Shown: positions 24,814-35,607, numbered from the stretch's first letter. The stretch is 64,000 nt of DNA from a virus (IMGVR_UViG_3300031857_000002:248001-312000), one strand, 5' to 3'. Notes: generated by a model from the letters alone, not told the origin. Program-made: numbers and translations.

Positions 24814-27048
24814 TTATTTGTATTGTAAGTTCACCAGTTCTTGGTGTAATCGATCACTGGCTAGTCCACGCAACAATCTCACATTGTCAACGTTGACTTG
24901 ATTTCGATAAATCTCTCGTGGTGCATAAAAGCTCGCATCTGGCATGGCCACTGCGTATGCTTGATAACCTTGAGGTTGTGTTGCCATTGTTGCAATGTCT
25001 ACTCGGCCTGCTAATTCATTTGGTTGAACATTCTTGTTTACTGCGTCTGTTTTTTGTTCTTGTGCATTTGCGTTTAATATCGCTGGACGTTGTTCCATTG
25101 CATCATTTAATGCTGACCGTCCACCCACTTTGATACCTTCATTCTGTGGAACTTCTACGTCTGGTTGTCTGTTATTAATGCCCGGTGGTGCTTGTAAACT
25201 GTACATATCAAATTGACTCTGCATCATACTTGAGGATAACGATGCGCTTGGGTCAGCAAATACGCTTTGTGTTGCTGGACGTAGTCCACCAACATTGACC
25301 ACGCTAGTTTGTGATACACTGGCTACATTTACTGCAGGTGCCTGTGATTGAATGTTAACAGTCGCAGACAATCCTGTACTTGTATTAGATTGTGTCATAC
25401 TGCTAGAGATACTTTGTGTAGTTAATGTGCCTGCGACATTTTCTGCTTGTTGTTGTGCCTGTTGTGCATCTTTGGCTGCGGCTGACTCTGCGGCTTGAAC
25501 CACTGTTTTGGCTTCGTTGCCTATTCTAGCTTGATTACTACTAATCATACTCATAACACTACTTAAACTAGGACTTGATTTGCTAGTGCTGTCACCTGCT
25601 GTTTTAACTTCGCCTGCTTTGGGTTGACTGCCGCCACCTTGCGGAGGAGGTTGATTTGCTGGTGTATTATTTGTATTAGAAGCCGGCGGAGGTGGACCTT
25701 CTCGGGGAGGTGGACTACCTGGTGGCGGTTCTGAGCCTGGTGGAGGGGGAGGACTACCCGGTGGCGGTGGACTGCCAGGAGGAGGTGGAGGCTGTGTAGG
25801 ATCATTCGCTGACATTCCTGTTGCAGGATCCATTGTTGAGGACTGTGTACCATCTGTAGTTGATGTGCTTGCCGGCGCAAGTTGTTTTGCTATAGCGAAT
25901 GCATATCCTTTACAATTTGAACTGTATAAAGGATTAGCTATACAAGGATCAGCAGTGTAAATCATTGTTGCCCAAGCACCTTCTATAGACGAATTTGTAC
26001 CTGATGCGGACCCTACAATTCTACTCGTACCCAGTAATGATTGATTCATACTTGATGGCAACAGATATTTGTCACTAACTGATCCACTAGTGCCGTCACC
26101 TGTAAAACTATAACTCTTTGAATGTATAGACTGGTTGTTACTATTAGTAAGTGAGAATGTTGCATTTGCATATGCAGGCACGTTCATATACCATGAACAC
26201 GATCCGTCTTGGTTGGTAGCAGTACATCCGTACCAACTTTGTCCAACTCTCCAATTAAACCCGTAATTAAATCCATGTACTCTAGCACCAACACCTGCAC
26301 TTTGTAATGCTGTATTAATAGCAAATGCTTGATTTAGACTAGAACCACCTTGAGTTGAATCTAATAAATTATTAGTGTTAAGAATGTTACCAAAGCCAGC
26401 ACAAGTTGAACTATAAGCAGGATTACTAGCACAGGGATCAACTGAGTATTTTAATTTAGCGTATACATCAGTAACCACCGGCCCATACAAACCAGCCCAG
26501 CCTCCCGAGTCAACACCGGAGAATGAAATGTTTAGTTTATTAAGACCAGTGAGTGTGTATGGAGTTGCAAAGGTAACATTCTGATTTTCTTGCTGCCAGG
26601 CATATAGCCACGTGTTATAATTAAAATTCTGAGAATATACATTAGTACCTGCTGAGTTAGTTAAACTAACATTAGCACTTAATTGATCAACTATGCCATT
26701 TGAATCAGTGCAAGATTGTTCCCCACCTATTTGGTTCTTACACCAGTTAGCATACCGCCATCCATATTGTAGCCCGTTGACTACAATGCCTGTTCCATTT
26801 AAGGCTTGATTGACTGCAATTGATTGTGATACGGTGCCAGCTTGCCAACTAAATTGATAACCATAACTGCCCCCAGCGCCAAACAACCCGGGTTCACCAT
26901 TTCCAGTTGCGGTCCATCCAGTAGATCCGTTGGTGAATACTGGATTGGTAATCAAATTACCAGTAATAGATATATCTTGACTGTTAGAATAGCTTGTGAG
27001 CAAGAACGCCAAGGATAGCGCCAATGCCAACTTTCTTATAAGTGTCAT
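24814..27048 (-). CDS. large secreted protein with duplicated domain and Pro-rich linker
   Basis: 744 residues with a signal peptide (L-A-L-A-L-S-L-A-F-L-L). Two related domains follow, each ending in a D-P-C-x-x-N-P-x-Y-S-S-x-C-x-G-[FY] signature (near residues 205 and 375) and each with Y-G-[WF]-x-[YW] and paired Cys, so probably disulfide-bonded beta-sandwich repeats. Next comes a Pro/Gly linker of P-P-P-x-G-S repeats (about 405-450), then a Ser/Ala/Gln-rich coiled region. The first 65 nt overlap the preceding gene. Likely surface-exposed or periplasmic; adhesin or host-envelope remodelling are guesses. Confidence 0.8.
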   Translation of the reverse strand: MTLIRKLALALSLAFLLTSYSNSQDISITGNLITNPVFTNGSTGWTATGNGEPGLFGAGGSYGYQFSWQAGTVSQSIAVNQALNGTGIVVNGLQYGWRYANWCKNQIGGEQSCTDSNGIVDQLSANVSLTNSAGTNVYSQNFNYNTWLYAWQQENQNVTFATPYTLTGLNKLNISFSGVDSGGWAGLYGPVVTDVYAKLKYSVDPCASNPAYSSTCAGFGNILNTNNLLDSTQGGSSLNQAFAINTALQSAGVGARVHGFNYGFNWRVGQSWYGCTATNQDGSCSWYMNVPAYANATFSLTNSNNQSIHSKSYSFTGDGTSGSVSDKYLLPSSMNQSLLGTSRIVGSASGTNSSIEGAWATMIYTADPCIANPLYSSNCKGYAFAIAKQLAPASTSTTDGTQSSTMDPATGMSANDPTQPPPPPGSPPPPGSPPPPPGSEPPPGSPPPREGPPPPASNTNNTPANQPPPQGGGSQPKAGEVKTAGDSTSKSSPSLSSVMSMISSNQARIGNEAKTVVQAAESAAAKDAQQAQQQAENVAGTLTTQSISSSMTQSNTSTGLSATVNIQSQAPAVNVASVSQTSVVNVGGLRPATQSVFADPSASLSSSMMQSQFDMYSLQAPPGINNRQPDVEVPQNEGIKVGGRSALNDAMEQRPAILNANAQEQKTDAVNKNVQPNELAGRVDIATMATQPQGYQAYAVAMPDASFYAPREIYRNQVNVDNVRLLRGLASDRLHQELVNLQYK

Positions 27049-28114
27049 CTAATTTTACCTCATCCAACTTTGGAATCTTGTGTGGATTAGCTTCCCAACT
27101 TGCCTTGGCTTGTTCACCAATCTTGCCTTCGTATGGGCAAGGTGTACCGGCTGCCAACATAGCGTCAAACACACGACGGTCTTGACACATGGTAGCAACT
27201 GCGGCTACCTTCATTCCCATGTCGTATAGTGTCTTTGAGAGTTTCAATCGTTCACAATTCATATCACGTACGGTACCACCTGAACTAACACCAAATACTT
27301 GTGTCTGAACTGATCCAGAACTACCTGTACTACATAGGTCAGCGTTACCACCTGACAGCATAGCAGGTGCTACCGCAGTAGGCGGAGGTTGAATAACACG
27401 TTGCGTAATCTCAGTTTGATTAATATTCTTGTTGGTTAACTCACCTTGCTGAATATTTGTGTTAACTGAATTATTTTGATTAACATTATTGTTAACTGAA
27501 GTACTTGTAGAATTATTAATATTACGATTGGTCATATCACCAGTGTTAACGTTGTTGTTGGTAGAGGTACTGGTGCTGACATTGTTGTTGTTATTTGTAG
27601 CTGTGCTGGTACTCACATTGTTGTTGTTATATGTCATTGTACCAGTATTTTCGTTTTTGTTGATATTGGTATTGTTGCTGGTACTGGTGCTGACATTGTT
27701 GTTGTTGTATGTCATTGTTCCAGAGTTGATGTTGTTATTGGTATAAGTCATTGATCCTGAATTCACATTGTTATTGTTAACAGTGCTTGTACCGCTATTG
27801 ATGTTGTTATTTGTGTTTACACTGGTACTGTTGTTATTGTTAGTATTTGCACTGGTACTATTAACTGTGGCTGCGCTGGTACTGGTACTGTTGCTGTTGG
27901 TATTGCTGTTTGAAGTAACTGTGCTGGTGCTGTTGCTGGTGCTGTTGGTATCAACCAGGGTTTTTGAGTCGTAGGTACCTTGGTTGATTAATGTACTTGT
28001 GCCAGTGGTTGTTCCACCAGCTGTACTAGATGTAGTGGTTGTTTGTGCTGTGGCAGTGACCACAAGCACAAGGCTGGCTAGGCCTATGGCAATTCTTTTT
28101 ATCATCGTACTCAC
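26984..28114 (-). CDS. secreted Asn/Ser/Thr-repeat protein with conserved C-terminal domain
   Basis: 376 residues. Signal peptide (A-I-G-L-A-S-L-V-L-V-V-T-A-T-A), then about 200 residues of degenerate repeats built on N-N-N-[VI]-[NS]-[ST]-[GS]-T with T-Y-N-N-N-N spacing, a pattern compatible with a beta-solenoid or amyloid-like fold. The C-terminal 120 residues form a separate domain (N-C-E-R-L-K-L-S-K-T-L-Y-D-M-G-M-K, four Cys) ending in a hydrophobic helix. Own TAAATA site and AAGGTGAG ribosome site; first gene of the secreted cluster. DNA repeats make it prone to length change. Confidence 0.8.
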   Translation of the reverse strand: MSTMIKRIAIGLASLVLVVTATAQTTTTSSTAGGTTTGTSTLINQGTYDSKTLVDTNSTSNSTSTVTSNSNTNSNSTSTSAATVNSTSANTNNNNSTSVNTNNNINSGTSTVNNNNVNSGSMTYTNNNINSGTMTYNNNNVSTSTSNNTNINKNENTGTMTYNNNNVSTSTATNNNNNVSTSTSTNNNVNTGDMTNRNINNSTSTSVNNNVNQNNSVNTNIQQGELTNKNINQTEITQRVIQPPPTAVAPAMLSGGNADLCSTGSSGSVQTQVFGVSSGGTVRDMNCERLKLSKTLYDMGMKVAAVATMCQDRRVFDAMLAAGTPCPYEGKIGEQAKASWEANPHKIPKLDEVKLDDTYKKVGIGAILGVLAHKLF

Positions 28115-28234: not shown

Positions 28235-29236
28235 TTACTTGATCTGTGTCCAAACACGCTCACGGATCTGCTTTGTTAAACTGTCTGGCAGTGCCACATA
28301 GTCTAAGTCTGCGGCATCTTTCTTGCCATTCTTGAATGCCCAATCAAAGAATTTTAGTACTTCATCGCTGGTGGCTTTGCTCTTTGGCTCTTTGTACATG
28401 ATGATGAAACTGGCTGAACTTACTGGCCAAGCATTGGGGTTCTTTTGATCCACAATGCTCAATCCCATACCAGGAACACTAAACCAATCAGCACCGTCTG
28501 CCGCGGCTGCAAATGTTAGGTCATCTGGGCTAACATATTTGCCTGACTTGTTTTGTAACTGTAGGAATACCATATTGTTTTTCTTAACATAAGCATACTC
28601 TACATAACCAATTGAACCTTTGATACGGTTCACATTGGCAGCAACACCTTCATTGCCCTTGCCCCCTACACTATTTGGTGAGGGCCATTTAACTGCGGCA
28701 CCACGACCTACTTTAGCTAGCCACTCAGGACTTACTGTAGCAAGATAGTCGGTCCAGTTGAATGTGGTGCCAGAACCGTCGGCACGGTGAACCACTGTGA
28801 TCAGTTCGTTAGGCAAATTTTTGCCTGGATTCAATGCCACCAACTTAGGATCATTCCATCTAGCAATAGTACCCATGAATACTTCAGCCATAACTGGGCC
28901 GGTGATACGTAGTTCTCCAGGCTTGACGCCGTCTAAGTTAACTACTGGAACAGTGCCGCCAATGATGGCAGGAAATTGAACCTGACCGTTTTTGTCTAGG
29001 TCTTCACCTTTGACTGGAGCATCAGTTGCACCAAAGTCTACGGTCTTTGCGTTGATTTGTCTAATGCCACCTGAACTACCAATGCTTTGATAGTTCAAAC
29101 TGTTGCCAGTTGCTTTCTTGTATCCTTCTGCCCATTTAGAATAGATAGGCATTGGAAAAGTTGCACCAGCACCTGTAATGTCTGCGTTTGCTGAAAATGT
29201 TACTGCGGTTAATAAGATTGCTAGTAGTTTGTTCAC
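28235..29236 (-). CDS. pstS: phosphate ABC transporter substrate-binding protein PstS
   Basis: 333 residues. Signal peptide (L-L-A-I-L-L-T-A-V-T-F-S-A-N-A), then the PstS ligand loops: G-A-G-A-T-F-P-x-P-I-Y, S-x-G-S-S-G-G-I, D-F-G-A-T-D-A-P and H-R-A-D-G-S-G-T-T-F-N-W, which bind phosphate in the periplasm. Full family length. Phages of marine cyanobacteria carry pstS as an auxiliary gene to keep phosphate flowing through the host PstCAB channel; no other pst gene is present here. A three-repeat Pho box lies upstream (29279-29307), so host PhoB probably controls it. Monocistronic (terminator at 28189). Confidence 0.96.
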   Translation of the reverse strand: MNKLLAILLTAVTFSANADITGAGATFPMPIYSKWAEGYKKATGNSLNYQSIGSSGGIRQINAKTVDFGATDAPVKGEDLDKNGQVQFPAIIGGTVPVVNLDGVKPGELRITGPVMAEVFMGTIARWNDPKLVALNPGKNLPNELITVVHRADGSGTTFNWTDYLATVSPEWLAKVGRGAAVKWPSPNSVGGKGNEGVAANVNRIKGSIGYVEYAYVKKNNMVFLQLQNKSGKYVSPDDLTFAAAADGADWFSVPGMGLSIVDQKNPNAWPVSSASFIIMYKEPKSKATSDEVLKFFDWAFKNGKKDAADLDYVALPDSLTKQIRERVWTQIK

Positions 29237-29261
29237 TGAGTTCTCCTTGTTGTGACAAGAT

Positions 29262-29307
29262 TATTTAAGGAGAATAATATTACAGTTTTATTACAAAATT
29301 ATGACCA
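29262..29307 (-). promoter_or_regulatory. Pho box with TAAATA -10, pstS promoter
   Basis: Minus strand: TGGTCAT-AATT-TTGTAAT-AAAA-CTGTAAT (29307-29279), three 7-nt repeats at 11-nt period, with the last 18 nt matching the enteric Pho box at 15 positions. Exactly 11 nt later comes TAAATA (29267-29262). The box overlaps the end of the glycosyltransferase gene. Confidence 0.8.
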
Positions 29308-30021
29308 ATATTTGGATGAATCTAAACTGTCCCAGTATTTCTTGTTATTTCGGTTAATAAAGTTCTTGATTAGATACTTGCCCATTCCAAGATATCCCAT
29401 CTTCTTGAATCTACGACTATCCTGTCCAAAGTGATGTCGAACAATTTTAAACTTTCGAGGACTATACTTCCTTGACAAAAAGTAATCCTCAGAGGTTGCA
29501 AACTGTTCAGGAAACCCGCCAAACTCGTCAAACTTATCTTTGCGTGTTAGCATGAATGCACCAACTGCAAAAGGTGAGAAAAATTTCAGTGTGTGATTTA
29601 TGGTATTAAAAAGAGTGAATCCAACTATGGCCCGCATGTCACGATCATAACATTTGATGTTTAGCCCAACCAGGTCTAGATTCTTTGATTGAATTTTGTC
29701 AACTGCATCTTGAATCACAGTATTTTTAAAGAAGCGAACGTCAGCGTCAATAAACAAGATATAAGGAGTAGTGACTAATCTTGCTCCGTTGTTCTTGGCA
29801 ACACTAACAGGGCCACCATCAATGATTTCAACGTTCAATCCTGAGCTGTTATCTTGTATAACTTGTCTAGTATTGTCAGATGAACAATCAGCAATAATAA
29901 TTCTAGTGTCACCAATGTTTTGTGCTCGCAATGAGTTTAACAAATGATGAATATAATTTTCTTCATTCTTGCAAGGTACTACTATAGTGATTTTGTCACT
30001 TAATTTTGTTGTCGTTTGCAT
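29299..30021 (-). CDS. family 2 glycosyltransferase
   Basis: 240 residues. I-T-I-V-V-P-C-K-N-E-E-N-Y-I (residues 11-24) and I-L-F-I-D-A-D-V-R-F (about 88-97) are the nucleotide-sugar binding strand and D-x-D motif of GT-A fold GT2 enzymes; G-A-F-M-L-T-R-K and S-E-D-Y-F-L are the acceptor and catalytic-base regions. Second gene of a unit with the PlcP-like phosphoesterase behind a Pho box (22-nt gap, AAGGA ribosome site). In phosphate-starved bacteria PlcP makes diacylglycerol that a glycosyltransferase turns into glycolipid; this enzyme is placed to do that, though GT2 transferases also build surface glycans. Confidence 0.88.
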   Translation of the reverse strand: MQTTTKLSDKITIVVPCKNEENYIHHLLNSLRAQNIGDTRIIIADCSSDNTRQVIQDNSSGLNVEIIDGGPVSVAKNNGARLVTTPYILFIDADVRFFKNTVIQDAVDKIQSKNLDLVGLNIKCYDRDMRAIVGFTLFNTINHTLKFFSPFAVGAFMLTRKDKFDEFGGFPEQFATSEDYFLSRKYSPRKFKIVRHHFGQDSRRFKKMGYLGMGKYLIKNFINRNNKKYWDSLDSSKYWS

Positions 30022-30042
30022 TGTCCTTCAACCTTAAAATTG

Positions 30043-30924
30043 TTAAATTTTAACTGCCACTTCATTGACGCCAGTGTCATTTCGCAACTGATCTGGTCCT
30101 TGAATGCCAGTTCTATTCTTCCTGGCACGTCCTGAGGATTGTTCACGTGAACCGCTATTAATATCAGTAACCACATTGTCTTTCTCCCGAGTCCAAGTAA
30201 TGATTTCCCAATGGCCATCCCAGTGTTCTACAAGTGCTGTACATGATTCAACCCAGTCGCCATCATTCATGTATGTTACACCGTTGATTTCTTTTATTTC
30301 TGCATGGTGTATGTGTCCACAGATCACGCCATCAAATCCACGCTTCTTGCAATAGTCTGCTAGATTTTCTTCAAACTTGAATATAAAGTCTACTGCTTTT
30401 TTAACTTTGTGCTTAAGAAACTTGCTAAGGCTAAAGTACCCAAAACCCAAGCGACGACGAATCCAATTAAATTTATTGTTGAGGCCAAGAACAAAGTCAT
30501 AGGCTTTATCTCCTAAGAATGCTATCCAAGGTGCCAGTCTAGTAATACCATCAAACAAGTCACCGTGGACAACTAAGTAGTGCTTACCATCAGCACCTAT
30601 ATGTTCTATTTGATTGTGTATTTCTATTAGACCAAAACTGAAACCATAGGGTATCATGGGTCTTAGGAATTCATCGTGATTGCCTGCAATGAATACAACT
30701 CTAGTGCCACGCTTGGCATGACCTAGCACACGACGAACAACATTGGTGTGGCTCTGTTTCCAACGCCATTTGTTTTGTTGTATACGCCAGGCGTCGATGA
30801 TATCCCCTACCAGGTAGAGTGTATCACATGAGTTGTGTTTGAGAAAGTTATTGAGGCGATCGGCTTGACAATCTTTGGTTCCAAGATGGACATCACTGAC
30901 AAAGATTGAGCGATATGTCTTCAT
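30043..30924 (-). CDS. plcP: PlcP-like metallophosphoesterase (phospholipase C type)
   Basis: 293 residues. Motifs: V-S-D-V-H-L-G-T (residues 8-15), V-G-D-I-I-D-A-W-R, A-G-N-H-D-E-F-L-R, V-H-G-D-x-F-D and V-I-C-G-H-I-H-H-A, ending with Y-M-N-D-G-D-W-V-E-S-C. This pattern is that of the family often named UDP-2,3-diacylglucosamine diphosphatase but containing PlcP of Sinorhizobium and marine bacteria. PlcP removes phospholipid headgroups under phosphate starvation. The C-terminal 30 residues are a basic extension. A Pho box (30946-30963) precedes it. LpxH-type lipid A activity is the alternative. Confidence 0.85.
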   Translation of the reverse strand: MKTYRSIFVSDVHLGTKDCQADRLNNFLKHNSCDTLYLVGDIIDAWRIQQNKWRWKQSHTNVVRRVLGHAKRGTRVVFIAGNHDEFLRPMIPYGFSFGLIEIHNQIEHIGADGKHYLVVHGDLFDGITRLAPWIAFLGDKAYDFVLGLNNKFNWIRRRLGFGYFSLSKFLKHKVKKAVDFIFKFEENLADYCKKRGFDGVICGHIHHAEIKEINGVTYMNDGDWVESCTALVEHWDGHWEIITWTREKDNVVTDINSGSREQSSGRARKNRTGIQGPDQLRNDTGVNEVAVKI

Positions 30925-30928
30925 CTAT

Positions 30929-30963
30929 TATTTAAGATGATGACTATTACAATTTTATTACAG
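30929..30963 (-). promoter_or_regulatory. Pho box with TAAATA -10, plcP promoter
   Basis: Minus strand CTGTAAT-AAAA-TTGTAAT (30963-30946), 15 of 18 matches to the Pho box consensus, then 11 nt and TAAATA (30934-30929), the same geometry as at pstS. The ATG is only 4 nt after TAAATA, so the transcript has almost no leader or uses another start point. Confidence 0.75.
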
Positions 30964-31633: not shown

Positions 31634-31921
31634 TTACATCAACATACGAATCAGACCCACACTGTCAATAGTGGTCAACAGTATATAGTTAGCCAGCATG
31701 CCAAAAGATTTCCTAGTCCAACTAGCCCAAGCATACAAACCACAGCCAAGGATCCACACAGGGTAAAGAGCAAGAAGCGGAGGCGTGGGTACGGTAAGTG
31801 CCATGACAATTGAACAACCAATACTAATACCCCAAGCAAGCAACTCAATAACAAAGCGAGTTCGGTTGGACTTAAAATCATCTCGTATCCAGTCAAATGT
31901 GTTAAGCAATATATCGTTCAT
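31634..31921 (-). CDS. small multi-span membrane protein
   Basis: 95 residues with about three hydrophobic spans (L-L-A-W-G-I-S-I-G-C-S-I-V-M-A-L; L-L-A-L-Y-P-V-W-I-L-G-C-G-L; L-A-N-Y-I-L-L-T-T-I). Small proteins of this shape are common in T4-like marine phages. It overlaps the end of the uvdE gene by 20 nt. Function unknown. Confidence 0.8.
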   Translation of the reverse strand: MNDILLNTFDWIRDDFKSNRTRFVIELLAWGISIGCSIVMALTVPTPPLLALYPVWILGCGLYAWASWTRKSFGMLANYILLTTIDSVGLIRMLM

Positions 31922-32921
31922 AAACTTGTTCGCTGGCTAAATTCTTGCCTTTGGCTTCGCATTGAATATCAAAGTTGTTAGCAAAGGTCAGAGCCCAATC
32001 AGTCACAGCGTCATTCCAATAGAAGTCGCTGTGGGCTCGTAGTTTCTGTTTCTTATAACCTCTAGCAAGAAGTTCAGCAAGATCGGGTCTAGTTCCTCGG
32101 TCATGGTCAACCAAAACGTCCTCGCGACTAACACTATAATGAAGTGCAGGACGAGTGCCGCGCCAAGAGTCAATAACCCGCTTGACGCGATCGTCCTGCG
32201 CGGTGATGTACTCTCCCGAGTTAATCCAGTGGTGGTGTAGGTCCAATACAAGAGCCACATGCTGAGCCACAGCCAAAGTAGTGTCAAGTCCATTTGTCAT
32301 CTCATCATTCTCGATGGTAATTAAGTTTCTTGCTTCGGGGCTGAGTCTACCCAAAGTACGCAAGAATTTAGCGGGACCACCTTTACCGCTCAAGTGTACG
32401 TTGATCTTAAAGCCGTTATCGTGCCAGGTATTACCATAACCCATCCAACGTGCCATATCAGCGTGGTATTCAAATTCTAGTATGCTACGTTCTACAATCT
32501 CATCTGCTTCGCTTGCTAGTACACAAAACTGGCCAGGATGAAAGCTCAAACGCACACCGTATTTACGTGCGGCTTCGCCAATTGGGGCAAAAATCTTTGC
32601 ACAGTGATCCTGAATTTCTTGGCGTTGCCACCATGCAATCCAGTTGGGCTCAGTGTAGCCCTGTAGCATTTCGCTACCAAGACGTACCATTCTACGTTCA
32701 ACGGGCAATGTGGCCACACGTTCAATCATCCGCACAGCCGCTGACGCATTGTGATTCATGATGTCCCATTGTCTCTGGTCTGCTTCGTTGGCATGTTCGC
32801 GAAGCCACCTCATGGTAGTTGATCTGCCGTTTAGGTCACGGTCCACTGCGTTGACTTTCATGCCACCACATTCAGTAGGGTCATTAAGCCATTTGCAACA
32901 AAAGCCAATTCGTGTGTTCAT
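31902..32921 (-). CDS. uvdE: UV damage endonuclease UvdE (UvsE)
   Basis: 339 residues with the TIM-barrel layout of UvdE: conserved N-terminus (I-G-F-C-C-K-W-L), R-L-S-F-H-P-G-Q-F, I-N-V-H-L-S-G-K, I-T-I-E-N-D-E and L-V-L-D-L-H-H-H-W-I, which hold the His/Glu/Asp ligands of the trimetal site. It nicks 5' to UV photoproducts and other lesions, giving the phage light-damage repair independent of the host. The start is fixed by the conserved N-terminus, yet the -10 ends 6 nt before the ATG, so the mRNA is predicted leaderless. Confidence 0.94.
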   Translation of the reverse strand: MNTRIGFCCKWLNDPTECGGMKVNAVDRDLNGRSTTMRWLREHANEADQRQWDIMNHNASAAVRMIERVATLPVERRMVRLGSEMLQGYTEPNWIAWWQRQEIQDHCAKIFAPIGEAARKYGVRLSFHPGQFCVLASEADEIVERSILEFEYHADMARWMGYGNTWHDNGFKINVHLSGKGGPAKFLRTLGRLSPEARNLITIENDEMTNGLDTTLAVAQHVALVLDLHHHWINSGEYITAQDDRVKRVIDSWRGTRPALHYSVSREDVLVDHDRGTRPDLAELLARGYKKQKLRAHSDFYWNDAVTDWALTFANNFDIQCEAKGKNLASEQVYERYIA

Positions 32922-33876: not shown

Positions 33877-34391
33877 ACGTGTCCTGTAATTTGCAATGTA
33901 TATCGATCTTCCAGCCCAATATTGGCAGCCATGTGTGGTGCATCGTACACCCATTCTACAGTTGTACCTGCTGTCCATTTTACATAAGGCTGACCAATAA
34001 CTTCTAGGTAGTGCCCTGATTGCCAGTCCTCTAACAACACTAATGCACGTCGGATTGACTGTTCTTGTCCTTGCAGATTAAACAATTCAATGTAACGTTT
34101 GTACAGGTCTTGATGTACCGGCATTACAGTACCTGTGGGCATGCGATAAAACGCAAGACCAATATCTTTCCATCCCATCTCAGTATAGATCTTAATAAAC
34201 TTATCAGCCCATGCTGGTAAACGATGGCGCATGTCGCAAAGATCCCCGCATATTTTAGTGTGATATCCTTGTGCTAACCACTGAGACACGCTGACAGGAT
34301 CGTTAAAAGGCTCCTGAATGTAATCAAGAGCCTTAAACTCATCGTCCCAGAATACAGGAAGATGATACTTATTGACCACGTGTGTTGCCAT
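33873..34391 (-). CDS. 2OG-Fe(II) oxygenase-like protein
   Basis: 172 residues from ATG 34391 (AAGG, 9 nt). M-P-V-H-Q-D-L gives H-x-D, R-A-L-V-L-L-E-D-W-Q-S-G-H-Y-L-E is the facing strand, and A-P-H-M-A-A-N-I-G and R-Y-T-L-Q-I-T-G give the distal His and Arg: a compact oxygenase as found in T4-like phages. Overlaps the dehydrogenase end by 23 nt and is coupled to the amidinotransferase. Substrate unknown. Confidence 0.82.
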   Translation of the reverse strand: MATHVVNKYHLPVFWDDEFKALDYIQEPFNDPVSVSQWLAQGYHTKICGDLCDMRHRLPAWADKFIKIYTEMGWKDIGLAFYRMPTGTVMPVHQDLYKRYIELFNLQGQEQSIRRALVLLEDWQSGHYLEVIGQPYVKWTAGTTVEWVYDAPHMAANIGLEDRYTLQITGHV

Positions 34392-35607
34392 AGTGAACAA
34401 CCTTAACATCTGGGGTAGATGTCAGTTTGCGCCATGGGTCAACAATGATACTGCCCTTGGGGATGTCACAGTAGGCTTGTGTGTCTTGTTGCTCGCCTGT
34501 GTATTCGTAAGTGATCTTGCGATTGTGTGCCCACAAAAACACAGCAGGGCCGGCAACTTCCTTAATAACTTCGTCTTGGTTGTCTGCCAAGGGATCAACA
34601 TAGCGCACATTAAATCCAGCTTGTTTGACATAGTGTCCAACCAAGGTAGAATAGCTACCAATACAGTATTCAACGTCTGGTTTGTAGGCTTTGCCATGAA
34701 TCACAACACTCATGCCATTTTGTTTGGCTTGTTCTACCAGGAACAATGCCAGATTCTTGGCTTGGATTTCACGAGCATGCATGATTGTGTCAAACAAGTC
34801 ATATCCTACTTCGTAGTGTTCTGCTAACCAACGAAGTGCAATATTATCACGTGGATGACAAGCACCTGCATCTCCCATGCCTGCTGTCATGTACTTGGGA
34901 CCTTGTAGTCGCATGGTGCTTCGTGCCAAGGCGTTTGTAACAACGTCAACGTTGATGTTGCCAATCTTCATAGCAAAGTCTTGAATCATGTTAACAATAC
35001 CAACCTTGGCCGAGATGTAGGTGTTGTAGAAGATCTTGATAGCTTCACATTCGTCCCAGGTGCCAATTTCGTAACGTGGGTCGTTGTTCATGATTGTTTT
35101 GTACAACGCAATCAACTCACCTGCAATACCTGTAAGCTCGCCATCTTCTGTGCCAATGATAACCATCTCAGGATTGGCCATGTCCCACTTCACTGATCCC
35201 ATGGCAATGAGGTAAGGATTGTACAAGAATTGATGTTTGGGGTCTAGCAATGTAATAAACTTGCTACGTGTGGTACCAGGTAGCACCGTAGAAATCAACA
35301 CAACTTTCTTGCTGGTCTTGGCATGTTGGTTGACTTTGTTGATGGCATCAATCACCGCATCGTGGCCAAAGTCCTTGGGGGTCATGTGACTTGATGGGAC
35401 TGATCCATCATATCCTTCTGCGTGTGGGGTTGGCACAGCAATAAAGATCCATTCGCTTTCATTGACCAACTCGTCAATGTCGCAAACTTTTACAGTGTCG
35501 CTAGTACGTGGGTAAATATCATAACCCCGCACTGTGTGCTTTTCTGCCATAACTTCGGCGCAATCAAGGCCAAGTTTACCGATACCGATAAATCCAATTT
35601 TTTTCAT
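34369..35607 (-). CDS. UDP-glucose/GDP-mannose dehydrogenase family protein
   Basis: 412 residues. N-terminal Rossmann motif I-G-F-I-G-I-G-K-L-G-L-D (residues 4-15), I-F-I-A-V-P-T-P, a central helical linker with Y-N-T-Y-I-S-A-K, the catalytic Cys in G-A-C-H-P-R-D-N (canonical G-x-C-F-P-K-D) and a C-terminal UDP-binding half (G-K-A-Y-K-P-D-V). These enzymes oxidise a UDP-sugar at C6 to a uronic acid for capsules or glycans. The F-to-H and K-to-R changes at the active site are unusual. The start codon is 3 nt from that of the divergent gene at 35611. Confidence 0.9.
   Translation of the reverse strand: MKKIGFIGIGKLGLDCAEVMAEKHTVRGYDIYPRTSDTVKVCDIDELVNESEWIFIAVPTPHAEGYDGSVPSSHMTPKDFGHDAVIDAINKVNQHAKTSKKVVLISTVLPGTTRSKFITLLDPKHQFLYNPYLIAMGSVKWDMANPEMVIIGTEDGELTGIAGELIALYKTIMNNDPRYEIGTWDECEAIKIFYNTYISAKVGIVNMIQDFAMKIGNINVDVVTNALARSTMRLQGPKYMTAGMGDAGACHPRDNIALRWLAEHYEVGYDLFDTIMHAREIQAKNLALFLVEQAKQNGMSVVIHGKAYKPDVEYCIGSYSTLVGHYVKQAGFNVRYVDPLADNQDEVIKEVAGPAVFLWAHNRKITYEYTGEQQDTQAYCDIPKGSIIVDPWRKLTSTPDVKVVHYGNTRGQ

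Follow-up and report, generated by a model that had tools for sequence, protein, structure and literature searches.

In several bacteria, among them SAR11, Phaeobacter MED193, Methylosinus OB3b and Agrobacterium, a gene for a PlcP-type metallophosphoesterase is followed by a glycosyltransferase gene, and a Pho box lies upstream of the pair (PMC4796936, PMC8231724, PMC9239053). Phage pstS genes with Pho boxes or under PhoB control are also already known: binding of host PhoB to phage promoters has been shown for cyanophages, and cyanophage pstS has been linked to normal lysis timing under low phosphate (PMC10976474), but no plcP-glycosyltransferase pair has been described in the cyanophage system. 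No description of a phage plcP, alone or paired with a glycosyltransferase gene, was found in the literature searched, from which preprints and most subscription journals were excluded. Here we describe a locus at 28235-30963 of a 64,000-nucleotide stretch of DNA (the window; bases 248001-312000 of the 320,175-base virus record IMGVR_UViG_3300031857_000002), in which a plcP-like gene, a GT2 glycosyltransferase gene and pstS stand behind two matching Pho-box-like promoters. The record belongs to a giant tailed phage of freshwater type; its being tailed is seen from PHROG matches to tail sheath, baseplate wedge, DNA polymerase, SbcC-like exonuclease and ribonucleotide reductase, and 26 tRNA genes were predicted in it.

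The three genes lie on the minus strand in the order of transcription plcP-like gene (30924-30043), GT2 gene (30021-29299) and pstS (29236-28235); calling of open reading frames (ORFs) returned the positions that an earlier inspection of the window, the sequence-only reading, had given for them. The 293-residue product of the first gene matches Pfam Metallophos and scores far below the cut-off of LpxH models. The second gene encodes a 240-residue GT2 enzyme (PF00535, 76.7 bits) and the third a 333-residue high-affinity phosphate-binding protein, which has a signal-peptide-like N-terminus and is preceded by the Shine-Dalgarno sequence AAGGAGA. The latter was identified as PstS by equivalog-level models above their cut-offs (TIGR00975, 373 bits with a cut-off of 205; PRK10918, 403 bits with a cut-off of 339) and by phrog_5385. 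The Pho box of the plcP-like gene, CTGTAATAAAATTGTAAT, occupies 30946-30963(-), and that of pstS, TTGTAATAAAACTGTAAT, 29279-29296(-). Each is followed after exactly 11 nucleotides (nt) by the −10-like element TAAATA, at 30929-30934(-) and 29262-29267(-), respectively. This spacing had been noted earlier, as had three 7-mers with an 11-nt period in the pstS promoter; the third of these, the half-site TGGTCAT at 29301-29307(-), 11 nt further upstream of the box, is present but weaker. Both boxes agree with the degenerate consensus CTGTCATAWAWCTGTMAY at 16 of 18 positions and with a fixed consensus at 13 of 18; the figure of 15/18 given by the sequence-only reading lies between the two counts. 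From the box through the −10 element, 30 of 37 positions are identical in the two promoters.

Compared with the bacterial PlcP-Agt systems, this locus is carried by a phage and adjoins pstS, it encodes a GT2 enzyme (GT-A, inverting by family) instead of a GT4 enzyme (GT-B, retaining), it contains an additional overlapping small gene, orf58, and the −10 element of plcP lies so near the ATG as to make a leaderless mRNA probable. It shares with the cyanophage pstS/phoA system, which is under host PhoBR, the phage pstS and, as predicted from sequence, the use of host PhoB (PMC10976474), but the box is the proteobacterial TGTMAY tandem and not the cyanobacterial PyTTAAPyPyT/A. The SAR11 phage isolate Mosig EXVC030M also has pstS adjacent to a plcP-like gene (49% identity to that of the window); there, however, the two genes are arranged head to head, PstS is of another type and no glycosyltransferase gene is adjacent, while a near relative of Mosig (L202, 94% in plcP) carries a GT4 gene.

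We consider it probable, at roughly three chances in four, that the locus acts as a Pho regulon with which the phage scavenges phosphorus, and through which host PhoB would switch on both phosphate uptake and an exchange of phospholipid for glycolipid. Under phosphate starvation, the activated PhoR-PhoB system of the host would lead to PhoB binding at the two phage Pho boxes, turning on PstS, by which phosphate uptake would be maintained, and the plcP-orf58-glycosyltransferase operon. PlcP would then remove the headgroups of host phosphatidylglycerol and phosphatidylethanolamine as phosphoalcohols, and the GT2 enzyme would cap the remaining diacylglycerol with a sugar, keeping the membrane a bilayer. 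Since the product of PlcP would be a phosphorylated headgroup, host phosphatases would still be needed to set free the phosphate, which could enter nucleotides and phage DNA synthesis. A 320-kb genome contains about 640,000 phosphates, so that by this arithmetic lipid phosphorus may be a relevant pool for a small cell.

The pairing of plcP with a glycosyltransferase gene was examined in 160 viral plcP loci, a glycosyltransferase within the next three gene positions being counted as partner. A GT4 partner was found in 72 loci and a GT2 partner in 67, and no locus contained both; six of the remaining 21 loci are cut off right after plcP. A separate search with GT2 found plcP directly upstream, in the one-operon position of Agt, in 76 of 79 viral loci, and the other three contigs start less than 80 nt before the GT2 gene. 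The viral GT4 proteins are Agt-like: of 14 residues probed in the SAR11 enzyme GTcp by mutation or docking, 10 are invariant in 67/67 copies, and their best identity to a bacterial GT4 is 47%. The window enzyme is not of the GT4/GT-B type: its sequence is GT2, its predicted structure (predicted local distance difference test, pLDDT, 87) gave GT-A matches, and the DxD and ED motifs are invariant in 12/12 aligned sequences. A search of the window enzyme for an amphipathic C-terminal helix that might bind membranes gave unremarkable moments. Because GT2 is tied to plcP and alternates with GT4, it appears to take the place of Agt, and judged by position and swapping with GT4, not by homology, it looks like a substitute for this lipid glycosyltransferase. 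The families known to make these glycolipids are GT4, GT21 and GT28. The pairing claimed by the sequence-only reading was borne out, and the lipid role it gave to the second gene rests on position and swapping, as GT2 is outside these families. GT2 enzymes are inverting. GTcp, of the Agt type, is retaining (PMC8231724), so the glycolipid made by the proposed diacylglycerol glycosyltransferase of the phage should be beta- rather than alpha-linked. Bacterial relatives of the phage GT2 were not found in 274 + 385 genomes (659 proteobacterial genomes) at 1e-30 and 1e-18, a weak negative because the search had no positive control.

Several observations weigh against the proposed regulon. The GT2 enzyme has no homology to known lipid glycosyltransferases and no transmembrane segment (maximum KD19 0.96), its structural neighbours are wall or capsule glycosyltransferases, and 15 of the 160 loci have other genes where the glycosyltransferase is expected. 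The number of partner changes on the PlcP tree by parsimony, 17 among 59 phage tips compared with a mean of 18.8 for shuffled labels, suggests little connection between the type of partner and the descent of PlcP, but this count is soft since the tree is weakly resolved. The tree also contains no named characterised PlcP, and PlcP membership was assigned by relatives and synteny. Finally, 47 of 115 distinct phage plcP upstream regions fit the box motif only with at least three errors; many of the poorly matching ones belong to a marine-type group, the hosts of which may use another box.

The first of these points also underlie the alternative that survives best, namely that PlcP acts as proposed while GT2 is merely co-transcribed and glycosylates another target, a glycan or a protein. 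Enzymes of the GT2 family and the GT-A neighbours act on wall polymers and glycans. On the other side, viral GT2 always accompanies plcP where sequence is available and fills the slot of GT4, and the invariance of its two motifs also speaks against this alternative, which we regard as possible but rather unlikely. It is less probable still that the lipid exchange serves to alter the host surface or membrane, for example for exclusion of other phages or preparation of lysis, with phosphate release as a by-product. Phages often employ glycosyltransferases to alter surfaces, GtrB-like matches were found, and the lipid composition of marine bacteria has been described as affecting the attachment of phages and the interaction with predators (PMC9938194, PMC9457565). 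However, among the clusters of genes flanking the 160 loci, only plcP, pstS and one further family have the box in at least two members, and a box shared with pstS and limited in this manner points to phosphorus supply.

The public annotation of related phage genes suggests a third alternative, under which the phage protein would be a UDP-2,3-diacylglucosamine hydrolase of the LpxH type, and lipid A or lipopolysaccharide (LPS) would be what the module modifies. The nearest solved structures are indeed LpxH, the predicted fold is an LpxH-like metallophosphoesterase, as expected for the superfamily, the metal-binding motifs are shared, and LpxH models give weak matches. The catalytic part of the protein comprises residues 1 to about 245, followed by a low-confidence, disordered tail (about 250-293). 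Its score with the LpxH model TIGR01854 was 35.9 bits (30.2 in the genome search) with a cut-off of 190. A scan of genome collections found close bacterial relatives, with about 50-63% identity, in Hyphomonadaceae, Neisseriales, Acetobacteraceae, Kordiimonas and others. Of 16 genomes with such relatives, 11 encode a separate true LpxH (213-298 bits), while the PlcP-like copies picked up by the model score 22-50 bits. The 11 LpxH sequences in a 120-protein tree fell into a single clade (support 100), separate from every phage and bacterial PlcP. The motif GNHD, which the window protein and the bacterial PlcP-like proteins have in place of the GNRD of LpxH, was present in 70/71 phage proteins, GNRD in 10/11 of the LpxH sequences extracted, and the metal-site motifs expected of PlcP (DxHLG, GDxxD, GNH[D/E], HGD and GHxH) were found in 70-71 of the 71 phage proteins of the tree set. 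Among the 60 bacterial loci called, at least 27, Kordiimonas included, have a GT4 gene directly 3′ of the plcP-like gene, which matches the plcP-agt arrangement of bacteria (PMC4796936, PMC8231724). Besides, Pho boxes would be unexpected on lipid A synthesis, and control by such a box is, at sequence level, a feature that the phage gene has in common with plcP. LpxH identity was therefore rejected, the corresponding reading of the module being very improbable, and relatives and synteny support the assignment of the phosphoesterase to the PlcP type. The sequence-only reading had preferred PlcP to LpxH and had proposed a phylogeny against both, naming grouping with LpxH as the result that would speak against it; the protein did not group with LpxH, and on the PlcP side it was placed by its relatives. 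A plcP-like gene with 56% identity, annotated as LpxH, also occurs on the Pseudomonas aeruginosa plasmids NZ_CP137508.1, CP075839.1 and NZ_CP042268.1.

The occurrence of the Pho boxes was analysed over the whole genome and in related loci. The motif consisting of two TGTxAY half-sites plus TAAAT occurs twice in the 320,175 bases, exactly at the plcP and pstS promoters, where 0.25 occurrences are expected by chance (mean over 12 Markov shuffles), and of the genome-wide sites with at least 15/18 matches only these two boxes have TAAATA 11 nt downstream. In the 160 viral loci, 43 of 116 distinct plcP upstream regions and 9 of 13 of those of pstS have the strict double half-site, but only 11 of 1644 other ORFs are preceded by it; among these 11 are nine members of one further family and a second plcP copy on the same contig. 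Clustered phage pstS upstream regions had the box in 9/9 cases. The strict double half-site preceded none of the 102 glycosyltransferase genes, which fits their transcription from the plcP promoter. The plcP box is kept in other viral contigs, and although the surrounding sequence is unrelated between many of them, the box has kept its place and its spacing from the −10 element. A similar site, with at most one mismatch, was present in 15 of 80 bacterial plcP upstream regions and in 12 of 1600 random stretches. Uniqueness and conservation thus support, as far as sequence goes, the proposal of a Pho box on both promoters. The motif is A/T-rich, but that the boxes arose by chance or are relics, with the genes following the usual expression timing of the phage, is the least credible alternative of all, given that both genome-wide sites fall on these promoters with identical spacing, that the position is conserved across divergent contigs and that bacterial plcP upstream regions are enriched for a similar site.

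In 64 of 107 distinct phage upstream regions, 4-8 nt separate the end of a −10-like element from the ATG of plcP (4 nt in the window), and 85 of the 107 have no Shine-Dalgarno sequence. With this spacing, the first transcribed nucleotide would lie at or beside the ATG, and the plcP mRNA is probably leaderless. Phage pstS genes, unlike plcP, have a spacing of 22-39 nt and a Shine-Dalgarno sequence in 12 of 14 cases.

The sequence-only reading had described plcP and the glycosyltransferase gene as a two-gene pair; both genes stand, but a further one between them had been overlooked. This 58-codon ORF, orf58 (30000-30176, minus strand), overlaps the tail of plcP in another frame and the start of the GT2 gene. 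It was matched in 79 of 80 window-like loci, which are close relatives, and in other loci it is a stand-alone gene between plcP and the glycosyltransferase gene. In the overlap region, amino-acid identity is 0.65 in the orf58 frame and 0.43 in that of the plcP tail, and nucleotide diversity at the three codon positions of orf58 is 0.32, 0.18 and 0.41, the third being the highest, which is the pattern of a gene under selection. Its conservation between the two genes defines the operon as plcP-orf58-glycosyltransferase. No PHROG or Pfam match was obtained for orf58, whose product, judged by its hydrophobic N-terminus, could be a small protein of the membrane or the periplasm.

Some further genes were noted in the window and in the related loci. 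The third family that has its own Pho box, cluster 15, encodes Ala/Val/Glu-rich proteins of about 215 residues (for example, L051:7710-8366, L081:4309-4953 and L069:7707-8351) and has the box in 10 of 11 loci; it gave no Pfam match above cut-off and was not found in the genome of the window. A Gram-negative porin gene (Porin_4, 102 bits) without a Pho box lies beside or near the plcP module in the loci L039 (5018-5896), L070, L071, L006 and L017. In the window, a UDP-glucose-dehydrogenase-like gene lies 3.4 kb upstream of plcP, at 34369-35607(-). Its product could make UDP-glucuronate available for a glucuronosyl lipid, but the gene was excluded as a module member providing the donor for glucuronosyl-diacylglycerol, as a close homologue is present in the flank of one relative only. 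A gene for a UvdE-type UV endonuclease (PF03851, 110 bits) is located at 31902-32921(-). Just downstream of pstS, 24814-28114(-) encodes two large secreted-looking proteins with only a weak PHROG match, to a family without assigned function; one of them (26984-28114(-)) is very rich in Asn, Thr and Ser.

The earlier view that the locus concerned a single phage had to be corrected, because at least 599 viral stretches match plcP patterns and the isolates Mosig EXVC030M and S-SRM01 have a plcP-like gene annotated as LpxH. Mosig is annotated as having a phosphate ABC transporter gene and a UDP-2,3-diacylglucosamine hydrolase gene, and the announcement of its genome contains no discussion of these pstS- and plcP-like genes. 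Viral lpxH genes have been listed for the surface layer of an oligotrophic offshore basin (PMC10653327) and in the Lake Baikal virome (PMC9611531), and, from the annotation pattern seen here, these could be plcP.

Taken as a whole, we lean somewhat towards the wider interpretation that aquatic phages have evolved a lipid-remodelling cassette of their own. In it, a phage-restricted inverting GT2, with no relative at the thresholds used in the 659 proteobacterial genomes, would have replaced the retaining Agt of bacteria next to plcP on repeated occasions, joined by the overprinted small membrane-type orf58 and, in some phages, by the third Pho-box-controlled family, and many virome 'lpxH' genes would really be phosphate-scavenging plcP. 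If this is true, mining of phosphate from membrane lipids would add to pstS, phoA and phoH a new class of virocell phosphorus strategy, and, with so many matching viral stretches, a widespread one. Viral 'lpxH / LPS' genes reported for Lake Baikal (PMC9611531) and for waters low in phosphate (PMC10653327) would then be relabelled as possible lipid phosphorus scavenging genes. The presence of two unrelated glycosyltransferases in one slot would also amount to a natural experiment, with the prediction that a beta- instead of an alpha-linked glycolipid is made.

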